Below, piece by piece: positions 50,018-52,932 of a stretch of 64,000 bases of DNA. Made by a program: the position numbers and the translations under genes. Each line of letters opens with the position of its first letter. Within the stretch, counting starts at the first letter, position 1. Source of the DNA: Nesterenkonia alba DSM 19423 (lineage in GTDB: Bacteria > Actinomycetota > Actinomycetes > Actinomycetales > Micrococcaceae); the NCBI RefSeq assembly GCF_000421745.1, contig NZ_ATXP01000004.1, forward strand, positions 124,001-188,000. Direction: 5' to 3'. Under the pieces are notes generated by a model, which did not search any database, was not told the DNA's origin, and was given only the letters and a program-made list of their open reading frames with translations.

Positions 50018-51289
50018 ATGGATCACACCACAGAACCCCACATGTGGGATACACAGACATCCCCCGCTGTCCGGCTTCACCACCCCGGTGACGCCCTAGC
50101 CCTGGTGCAGCATGTCTTCGGGCACATCCCGCGCCAGTCACTGGTCCTCATCGGTGTTACCGGTGGCACCAGCGGTGGACATTTACGCATCGACCTGCCA
50201 CCGGCCCTCGACCACCCCCAGATGATGGCTCAGCGTTGCGCGCAGTGGCTTGCCGGAGCGGATGCCTCACCGGTGCCCCAGGCCTGTCTTGCCATGGTCT
50301 TCGACGAGGATCCGCCCCGTTGCGGCGGTTGTACCCTCGATGAACTCCTCGCGGCACTGCGCGAGGCTCTTGAGCATCTCGGCGGCATCCGTCTGCTTCA
50401 CATTTGGCACGTCACCGGGGGTCGTATCCGCGACTACGCCTGCCAGGATCCGCAGTGCTGCCCGCCCGAGGGTCATGCCATCAGCACGGTGCTGGAACAG
50501 ACCTATACGCGATTGCCCCATCTGGCTCCGGTGGGGGAGACCCATACACCGGAGGAAATGCTTGCTGAGTACCTGGCCCCCAGCACTGCGCTGTCCTCGG
50601 ATCAAGTGGAGGGTGTGGTGCAAGCGGCCCAGGCGGCTGAGGTTCAGCACTGTGAGGCGGTGCTCACGCTCTGGGACGCGGCCCTGCGCCGCAGTTGCCG
50701 TGAACAGCACGCCGGTTGGATTCATACCCAGCCGCAGCGGACCGCTCCACTATTGGCTACGCTCCGTCGTTCCGTGGTGGCTGACTGGCTCAAACCGCTC
50801 GCCACGATGGGTTATCTCACCGCACTTGCTGGCGCGTACCTGGATCAGGTCACTGGCGAAGGCGTCTGCGTGAGGCAGGACTACCTCCCTGCGGTGATGG
50901 AACACCTGCCCGATCGGATCACCGAGGAGCAGGCAGCCCAACTACTGGTCGATTGCGCGGCTGCAGCCGAAGGAGCAACTCCGCATCCACCCGATTGGCT
51001 CCGCGTGGAAGCTCTTGACCTCACCCTGCGGGAACTGTTGCCCTATGCCCAGGGTTATCAGCGCCAAACCATCCTCTGCTTGAAGGGGTGGATCGAATGG
51101 ATTCGCGGTCGGGGCTCAGTGGCCTCTGTTGCGGTCGAAACGGTACTGACAGAAGCACCGGATAGTACACCGGCGACGGCGTTGCGTCGCCTCATCGCTC
51201 GGTACCCGGTCTGCGACTGGGCCCGGGTGAAACGGCACAGCTACAGCTGGTGGGCGGCCAACGGTAGGGTCCCGGGACAACAGCGCTGA
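50018..51289 (+). CDS. DUF4192 domain protein
   Basis: A 423-residue protein of an actinobacterial family of unknown function, usually found near sigA as here. The N-terminal part has VRLHHPGDALALVQHVFGHIPRQSLVLIGVTG, typical of the family, then CLAMVFDEDPPRCGGCTLDE and RIRDYACQDPQCCPPEG with several Cys that might bind metal. The C-terminal half is helical and rich in Ala, Leu and Trp. No membrane segment is seen. The ATG at 50018 is chosen; a CAGCCT -10-like hexamer ends 6 bases before it. An ATG at 50042 is an alternative. Confidence 0.8.
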   Translation: MDHTTEPHMWDTQTSPAVRLHHPGDALALVQHVFGHIPRQSLVLIGVTGGTSGGHLRIDLPPALDHPQMMAQRCAQWLAGADASPVPQACLAMVFDEDPPRCGGCTLDELLAALREALEHLGGIRLLHIWHVTGGRIRDYACQDPQCCPPEGHAISTVLEQTYTRLPHLAPVGETHTPEEMLAEYLAPSTALSSDQVEGVVQAAQAAEVQHCEAVLTLWDAALRRSCREQHAGWIHTQPQRTAPLLATLRRSVVADWLKPLATMGYLTALAGAYLDQVTGEGVCVRQDYLPAVMEHLPDRITEEQAAQLLVDCAAAAEGATPHPPDWLRVEALDLTLRELLPYAQGYQRQTILCLKGWIEWIRGRGSVASVAVETVLTEAPDSTPATALRRLIARYPVCDWARVKRHSYSWWAANGRVPGQQR

Positions 51290-51330
51290 GCAGAGATGAT
51301 CCGGCGCGCGGAAGAAAAGTTCGCGTTTCG

Positions 51331-51356
51331 GGAATGCCCGGGGGCGCAGTATCGTT
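51331..51356 (+). promoter_or_regulatory. SigH/SigR-type promoter upstream of sigA
   Basis: GGAAT (51331-51335), 18 bases, GTT (51354-51356). A SigA-like -10, TATCGT (51350-51355), overlaps the GTT, so either sigma factor might start near 51362. Confidence 0.55.
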
Positions 51357-51467
51357 GGCACTCGCACAGAAGACCCTGCAGACCCGGCGAGGAGTGCATC
51401 CTCCACACGGGACTTGACAGGGTCATAGGCGTGTTGGGCATGTCTTCATAGATACCCGGTGCGCCGA

Positions 51468-51485
51468 CCCCGTCTACGGACGGGG
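51468..51485 (+). promoter_or_regulatory. UNCG-loop hairpin in the sigA leader
   Basis: CCCCGTC-TACG-GACGGGG is a 7-bp stem with a cUACGg tetraloop, an unusually stable RNA hairpin, 28 bases before the sigA GTG. Confidence 0.5.
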
Positions 51486-51513
51486 CACCCAAGTGTCGAG
51501 TCGGAAGGTCATC

Positions 51514-52932
51514 GTGCCCACTACTGCGTCAAAGACTGAGGAAGAGACTCAGGTCCCCGAGGCTGAGAAGAAGAGTGCCTCCGCCAAGGGGAGCACGCGC
51601 TCGTCCGGGGGGTCGGCGAAGAAATCATCGACGACCAGCTCCCGGAAGAAGGCCAGTTCCACCTCAGCTGGCTCGAAGGCGTCCCGGTCGAAGGCCGCCT
51701 CAGCGAAGAAGACCTCCACGAAGAAAACCGCAGCCGGGACATCTTCTGCCGGTGCCAAGAAGACCGGCGGACGGAAAAAGACCGACGCGGTGGACGAGAT
51801 CCTCGCTGAAGTCGAGCAGGAGGAACAGCAGGAAGAGGCCCAGTCACCCACTGAGGCGCTGGAGTCGGCTGTGGCCAAGGCAGAGGATGCCGGTGAGGAC
51901 GCTTCCAGCCTGGTCGATACAGACACTGGGGAAGCTGAGGAGGAGTCGACCTCCGGGCGGGGCTTCGTCATCTCCAACGCTGATGACGACGACGCCCCTG
52001 CTGTCCAGGTCGTTTCTGCAGGGGCAACAGCCGACCCGGTCAAGGACTACCTGAAGCAGATCGGGAAAGTCGCGCTGCTGAACGCCGAACAAGAAGTTGA
52101 CCTCGCGCTGCGGATCGAGGCCGGCCTCTACGCAGAGCACAAGCTGAAGACTGAGACCATCAAGGACAAGCGTCTCAAGCGCGATTTGGAACTCATCGTC
52201 GCTGACGGCAAGAAGGCGAAGAACCACCTGCTGGAGGCGAACCTCCGCCTGGTGGTCTCCCTGGCCAAGCGCTACACCGGCCGCGGCATGCTCTTCCTGG
52301 ACCTCATCCAGGAAGGAAACCTCGGTCTGATTCGTGCGGTGGAGAAGTTCGACTACACCAAGGGCTTTAAGTTCTCCACCTACGCCACCTGGTGGATTCG
52401 TCAGGCCATCACCCGGGCCATGGCAGACCAGGCTCGCACTATCCGCATCCCGGTGCACATGGTCGAGGTCATCAACAAGCTGGCCCGCGTCCAGCGTCAG
52501 ATGCTGCAGGACCTCGGGCGTGAACCGACGCCGGAGGAACTGGCTGCCGAGCTGGATATGACCCCGGAGAAAGTCGTCGAAGTGCAGAAGTACGGCCGCG
52601 AGCCGATCTCCCTGCACACCCCTCTGGGTGAAGACGGTGACTCGGAGTTCGGTGACCTCATCGAAGATTCTGAGGCCGTTGTTCCCTCAGATGCGGTGAG
52701 CTTCACCCTGCTGCAGGAACAGTTGCACTCCGTGCTGGACACCCTTGCCGAGCGGGAGGCAGGTGTGGTCGCCATGCGCTTCGGTCTGACTGATGGCCAG
52801 CCCAAGACTCTCGATGAGATCGGGAAGGTCTATGGCGTGACCCGCGAGCGTATAAGGCAGATAGAGTCCAAGACGATGTCCAAGCTGCGTCACCCCAGCC
52901 GTAGCCAGGTTCTCCGCGACTACCTGGACTGA
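51514..52932 (+). CDS. sigA: Primary RNA polymerase sigma factor
   Basis: A 472-residue housekeeping sigma-70. The first 160 residues are a disordered arm, Lys/Ser/Ala/Thr-rich ([19 protein letters not shown]) then acidic. Region 1.2 is [20 protein letters not shown], region 2 is [40 protein letters not shown], region 3 follows, and region 4 is [33 protein letters not shown] choose the GTG at 51514 because GGAAGG lies 5 bases upstream; a GTG at 51493 has none. Two promoter types may feed it. A bidirectional terminator follows 114 bases later. Confidence 0.95.

Follow-up and report, generated by a model that had tools for sequence, protein, structure and literature searches.

Most genes of a bacterium are transcribed at a level that depends on how much housekeeping sigma factor is present, which makes the control of this factor a central question. 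The closest described case is the principal sigma gene hrdB of Streptomyces coelicolor, of which, according to an excerpt of PMC9205884, promoter P2 is read by SigR and promoter P1 by ShbA. The same excerpt gives the SigR consensus as GGAAT-N18-19-GTT, and during thiol stress HrdB is reportedly kept up by SigR (excerpt of PMC5742136, citing Kim et al. 2012). In Corynebacterium glutamicum, promoters of the SigH sigma factor, e.g. those of sigB and trxB1, have the core -35 GGAA and -10 GTT, and sigB is SigH-controlled (excerpts of PMC5483222 and PMC3489674).

In our study, we analysed the region upstream of sigA in a window of 64,000 nucleotides from Nesterenkonia alba DSM 19423 (contig NZ_ATXP01000004.1, positions 124,001 to 188,000) together with its counterparts in the family Micrococcaceae. 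Judging from the letters, sigA is preceded by a SigR/SigH-type promoter in nearly every relative examined. A SigR promoter before a principal sigma gene is already known from hrdB, and the Micrococcaceae sigA case extends it: a further actinobacterial family has a Streptomyces-type stress-sigma promoter before the primary sigma gene, at 74 of the 77 loci compared. The two systems are alike in that the primary sigma gene has a SigR-type promoter in both; they differ in that Streptomyces has the second promoter P1 (ShbA), and in that, among 80 named loci, the 63 from outside the family gave no match to the leader RNA described below in front of sigA/hrdB. With C. glutamicum the locus shares the GGAA/GTT core and a sigma gene as target, but the target there is the non-essential sigB, whereas in Nesterenkonia it is the primary sigA.

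Loci compared and sigma factors of the genomes

The comparison comprised 77 sigA leaders: 28 from the same genus, 17 named loci and 32 other loci of the same family. The genus loci, one of which is the window, were obtained by a SigA protein match in 30 same-genus genomes, two incomplete ones giving no match. The 17 named loci were picked for the conserved block downstream of the promoter out of 80 named loci among the matches listed, the other 63 lying outside the family and the best of the 80 being from Arthrobacter, and the 32 loci from other family genomes were selected by the block pattern. As the set was gathered partly by that pattern, block columns that reach 100% do so partly by construction, and the fair measure of block conservation is given by the 28 genus loci and by 34 of 35 family genomes. 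Because some of the 77 loci may belong to the same species, a 41-member non-redundant set was used too. Of the family loci, 61 extend far enough to be checked for a SigA motif downstream, and every one of them has it; the outside control, L146, does not.

In the window, the gene and its ribosome-binding site are placed as follows.

51514-52932, plus strand: sigA, primary sigma factor, GTG start (NF004561, 799 bits against a cut-off of 582; Sigma70 r1_2, r2, r3 and r4)
51503-51508, plus strand: Shine-Dalgarno-like GGAAGG of sigA (read directly)

As the start codon, GTG 51514 is preferred to GTG 51493, given the position of GGAAGG and the VPTTAS N-terminus of many genus loci. The gene upstream encodes a DUF4192 protein and ends at 51289.

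The 2.59-Mb genome of Nesterenkonia alba encodes SigR and RsrA in tandem (371 bits against a cut-off of 251.6, and 79 bits against 62.5, respectively), and SigR scores above the cut-off in all 34 further family genomes. The sigR gene has its own GGAAT-N18-GTT (GGAATG-N17-GTT), 92 nt before a candidate start, which is a site of autoregulatory type. Genome-wide, GGGAAT-N18-GTT occurs at 13 sites compared with 3 for the backwards pattern, and several of the 13 fall within long open frames. Others of the 13 are placed shortly before frames which, named by eye, we take to be DnaK-like, HesB/ErpA-like and SufT/PaaD-like (L086, L093 and L089); from their position, these sites likely belong to the SigR regulon.

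Profile PF04542 has three matches in the window's genome and two, SigA and SigR, in G365. The only non-SigR ECF sigma factor found with it in the window's genome has its gene immediately ahead of one for a Ser/Thr protein kinase (L082, 1396-2118 and 2-1399, minus strand, contig C2). This second ECF sigma has no curated equivalog match above cut-off, and the 500 nt upstream of its gene contain no block-like site, the best score with the block model being -22 bits vs at least 34.5 in block members. Genome G365 (L172, L199), a family genome of 2.2 Mb and an estimated 100% completeness with SigA and SigR as its only sigma factors by PF04542, is a minimal case for the question of unstressed sigA transcription.

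Promoter element upstream of sigA

Upstream of sigA we read, directly in the letters, GGAAT at 51331-51335, 18 nucleotides of spacer and GTT at 51354-51356, with TATCGT laid over the latter.

51331-51335, plus strand: -35 element GGAAT of the SigR/SigH-type promoter (GGAA[TC]-N18-GTT in 74 of 77 family loci)
51354-51356, plus strand: -10 element GTT of the same promoter (read directly; same count)
51350-51355, plus strand: TATCGT, a SigA-like TANNNT hexamer over GTT, lineage-limited (14 of 74 loci, window's genus only)

These letters agree with the sequence-only reading, which had proposed a SigR/SigH-type promoter before sigA at this place; the proposal is borne out by the family loci and by the SigR and RsrA genes of the genome. 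That reading had named absence of the GGAAT block in close relatives as an observation that would speak against it, and GGAAT is present in them. Of the 77 family sigA loci, 74 have the pattern GGAA[TC]-N18-GTT in the 260 nt that precede the conserved leader block (38 of 41 in the non-redundant set), while any other gap from 10 to 27 nt gives 0-5 of 77 loci and the reversed pattern at N18 gives none. The three remaining loci have N19 (two) or GTC (one), and the 35th family genome, G391, has its own GGAAT-N18-GTT. Spacing and both elements fit the SigR/SigH consensus (GGAA[TC], 18-19 nt, GTT). The -35 element is preceded by G at 51330, a position at which 56 of 58 non-redundant loci also have G.

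From the usual promoter geometry, transcription presumably starts at about 51363-51366. The sigA start codon at 51514 is separated from GTT by 157 nt. Provided that SigR uses the predicted promoter, thiol stress would raise sigA transcription, in analogy to what SigR does for hrdB. In the family loci, an A+T-rich stretch, possibly UP-like, is located about -20 to -11 upstream of GGAAT (57-60% vs about 36-41% on either side).

A predicted two-hairpin leader RNA

What the sequence-only reading had missed is a conserved structured RNA leader, which the promoter would transcribe. The two-hairpin RNA, made of helices P1 and P2 and of hairpin P3, spans 51372-51465, at the start of the predicted transcript, and has the following parts.

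51370-51468, plus strand: whole leader RNA element (covariance model R1, built without the window's genus; 46 bits, E 2.6e-9)
51372-51378, plus strand: P1 helix, 5' strand GACCCUG, from the 16th base after GTT, pairing with 51418-51424
51383-51386, plus strand: P2 helix, 5' strand CCCG (fold; partner-swap tests over the family)
51408-51411, plus strand: P2 helix, 3' strand CGGG (fold; partner-swap tests)
51412-51417, plus strand: conserved internal-loop strand ACUUGA (column counts; TTGA had also served to select loci)
51418-51424, plus strand: P1 helix, 3' strand CAGGGUC (34 of 35 family genomes have TTGACAGGGTC[AT]TAG, and the other one has TTGACAGGGTC)
51425-51427, plus strand: conserved AUA linker, AUAG with 51428 (column counts)
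51428-51438, plus strand: P3 hairpin, 5' side GGCG-UG-UUGGG (fold, R1 match; counted in other genera)
51455-51465, plus strand: P3 hairpin, 3' side CCCGG-UG-CGCC (fold, R1 match)

The comparison of loci indicates that RNA pairing is conserved in the sigA leader, with different contributions of the three helices. In P1, GACCCTG (51372-51378) is the reverse complement of CAGGGTC (51418-51424) and is present in 28 of 28 genus loci. Other genera have arm variants (GGCTCTG, GATCCTG, GGTCCTG, GACTCTG) in which pairing is kept through G-U, and in some of their loci the last P1 pair or the arm is lost; altogether the arm is good in 67 and weak in 10 of the 77 loci. Among 22 non-genus loci P1 undergoes one-sided wobble changes only, never two-sided ones, and its 3' strand is more invariant than needed for pairing. 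The duplex energy of the leader 5' stretch with the block is modestly better than that of shuffles (mean z -0.95; 6 of 38 loci at P <=0.05).

Compensatory change is confined to P2 and P3. The sequence of P2 differs between lineages, and each tends to keep its own partner: when partners were swapped among 31 loci, 7 of 38 having been left out by the P1 filter, the observed score was reached in 0 of 5000 trials, and in 13 of 5000 when swaps were made within clades. The within-clade signal rests on two clades (P 0.02 for 6 loci and 0.003 for 17 loci), since the window's own clade, of 8 loci, gives P 0.47. For P3 alone, 93.5% of cells pair in 24 loci vs at most 63% when the strands are slid; its covariation score was reached by 1 of 500 shuffles and its count of two-sided pairs by 34 of 500. 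For the three helices together, in 22 non-genus loci chosen for the P1 arm, 90.2% of cells pair vs 38-44% slid (P1 95.5%, P2 72.9%, P3 94.4%), five pairs are changed on both sides, and the covariation score was reached by 0 of 500 shuffles, which, as in all our shuffle tests, leave the relatedness among loci in place. The leader folds with a mean z of -3.18, 30 of 38 loci being below -1.64, compared with -0.15 and 2 of 38 for stretches of equal length upstream of the promoter.

The most conserved letters form the block GGAC-TTGACAGGGTC-[AT]TAG-KN-GTGTTR, found right after the promoter. Its part TTGACAGGGTC[AT]TAG occurs a single time in each of 34 of 35 same-family genomes; the remaining one, G391, keeps TTGACAGGGTC but not ATAG, and has the GACCCTG/CAGGGTC pair and an R1 match of 28.2 bits. 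Outside the family, the pattern TTGACAGGGTCNNAG is present in 13 of 361 other genomes of the order, ATAG in one of them only (L146), with no SigA motif downstream there. With a weight matrix of the block, no member scores below 34.5 bits and none of the 63 named loci from outside the family above -9 bits. In the window's genome the block has one exact copy, and with up to 3 mismatches it is found at 48 places (the copy included) vs 33 backwards. The letters TTG ACA GGG TCA TAG could also be read as a short upstream reading frame; this candidate was rejected, the stop being lost in L015, L101 and G391 and no conserved ribosome-binding site being seen upstream.

Model R1 recovers all 28 genus loci at E <1e-4, the window included, and 16 of the 17 named family loci at the same threshold, twelve of these being training sequences; the match in Rothia amarae (L010) is weak, 14.5 bits. 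In the 63 non-family named loci there is no sigA/hrdB-upstream match among the matches listed, and the best match that a non-family locus gives (L007, E 0.02) is on the opposite strand inside the sigA region, not upstream. With 150 candidates scored per genome, R1 has no match at E <=0.001 in 14 genomes of other families and misses the block carrier G365. Search of window positions 51250-51600 against Rfam gave no covariance-model match at E up to 5, and six further loci gave one snoRNA match (E 0.86, 19.9 bits vs a gathering score of 64), which is not credible. Among the papers listed in the literature search, none points to a folded leader before sigA of these bacteria, and a term search of PMC8040213 gave neither sigA nor rpoD. 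The leader RNA is apparently an undescribed, strongly conserved element.

Possible role of the leader and alternative readings

The transcript made from the SigR/SigH promoter would open almost at once with the P1/P2 hairpin and its nearly invariant strand CUUGA-CAGGGUC-AUAG, followed by P3 and then by the ribosome-binding site. Where the arm is good (31 loci), the first base of P1 is the 10th to 16th after GTT, which would put the helix at the very 5' end of the SigR transcript, whose start is itself predicted. There is no terminator in the window between 51100 and 51600, and control by termination is therefore unlikely; the leader would instead act in cis, on how the sigA mRNA is translated or how stable it is. 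Some members of the family have a CACAGA strand, closing P3, that can pair with UCUGUG, which holds the GUG start codon (of 5000 partner-swap trials on 19 of 27 loci, 27 reach the observed score, the other 8 loci being without the needed triplet). Such pairing may compete there with P3 and would then make a translational switch. A further pairing involves a segment near the start:

51494-51502, plus strand: UGUCGAGUC next to the ribosome-binding site (possible partner of leader GACUUGACA; alternative fold, own lineage only)

The GACUUGACA-UGUCGAGUC pairing has z -3.6 in the window; of 14 non-redundant genus loci 3 have a z lower than -1.64, as does 1 of 27 others, and a general pairing of block and ribosome-binding site was rejected on these counts. 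Because no terminator is present, post-transcriptional control of sigA seems the likeliest role of the leader; the start-codon and ribosome-binding-site pairings, which are patchy, are candidate switches. As a whole, we regard a sigA gene under a SigR/SigH promoter with a conserved structured leader acting post-transcriptionally as the best explanation, and probably the right one. If the RNA acts, control of a primary sigma factor after transcription could be tested on it; Arthrobacter and similar genera can be grown in the laboratory.

The promoter may be read otherwise. SigR and SigA could share it through overlapping -10 elements, with one start site in both conditions, as the sequence-only reading had suggested. 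The overlap of TATCGT with GTT in the window is real, and a TANNNT with its last T on a T of GTT is found in 14 of 28 loci of the window's genus, but in 0 of 46 elsewhere among the 74 promoter-bearing loci; in 58 non-redundant loci there are 10 cases vs 3.8 in spacer shuffles (P 0.002), these 10 being interrelated and not independent. Moreover, a consensus scan of 51100-51600 found no sigma-70-type hexamer pair. On these grounds a shared -10 is possible in the window's lineage and is not a family feature, and promoter sharing as the explanation is unlikely. Since a primary sigma gene is expected to have an unstressed promoter and the scan found none, the conserved 27-nt block might itself be a DNA element, i.e. 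a second promoter or an operator, with the RNA helices being secondary. Its geometry, GGACT-N18-GTT, is like that of an ECF promoter, it contains a perfect TTGACA, TTGACAGGGTC varies less than pairing alone would demand, two-sided changes are absent from helix P1, and hrdB of Streptomyces likewise has another promoter, the ShbA-read P1 (excerpt of PMC9205884). However, no conserved -10 hexamer follows TTGACA at 16-19 nt, for which a SigA promoter with TTGACA as -35 was rejected, and the co-varying P2 and P3 helices and the fold z-scores would be unexpected for a DNA site. GGAC and GTT also vary in the clade that includes G365 (L172), a genome with SigA and SigR only by PF04542, and this, along with the conservation of the spacer as well, led us to reject a SigR-like second promoter within the block. 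A dedicated ShbA-like third sigma factor in every block carrier was rejected too: G365 has the block and only two PF04542 matches, which makes the ShbA route unlikely to be general in the family, a sigma factor divergent from PF04542 being conceivable. We consider a DNA element as the main function of the block improbable.

The RNA, in turn, need not be regulatory. The P1/P2 hairpin could be a 5'-terminal stem that merely slows decay of the sigA mRNA and neither switches nor binds a ligand, which would suit both the place of P1, about at the predicted 5' end in the 31 good-arm loci, and the variable sequence and length of P2 and its loop. A plain stem does not need the nearly invariant internal loop and its flanks (CUUGA, AUAG), though, and we find this reading rather unlikely, but worth keeping in mind. 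Kinship of the block with the rRNA leader (boxA-like) element was suggested by TTGA-N7-ATAGTG, common to the block and TTTGAGAACTCAATAGTG of the same genomes; the best gapless match has 15 letters, which 21% of shuffles reach (P 0.21), and the relationship, rejected on similarity, is highly improbable. The over-invariant 3' strand of P1 could reflect a bound protein, a ligand, a partner RNA or a role at the DNA level. Extending the preferred post-transcriptional reading, we tentatively propose, as something that may well prove wrong, that the sigA mRNA carries family-wide a new class of regulatory RNA which senses the state of the cell and adjusts how much primary sigma factor is translated; the input may be a metabolite, an RNA-binding protein, or the sigma factor or RNA polymerase itself. 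If true, a thiol-stress promoter would be joined to an RNA, and transcriptional and translational control of sigA would meet in less than 200 nt. The leader is similar to riboswitches and protein-binding mRNA leaders in having conserved helices, with unpaired letters that are conserved too, close to the ribosome-binding site and upstream of a single gene; it differs from them in lacking a credible Rfam match and in being found, in this comparison, in one family and before one gene only.

Two features concern the extent of the leader. Between P3 and the ribosome-binding site the window has an extra hairpin, CCCCGTC-TACG-GACGGGG (51468-51485). The shortest leaders, with 38-39 nt from GTT to TTGACA, are those of L030 and L179; L030 still folds P1/P2-like and P3-like hairpins and could be a minimal form.
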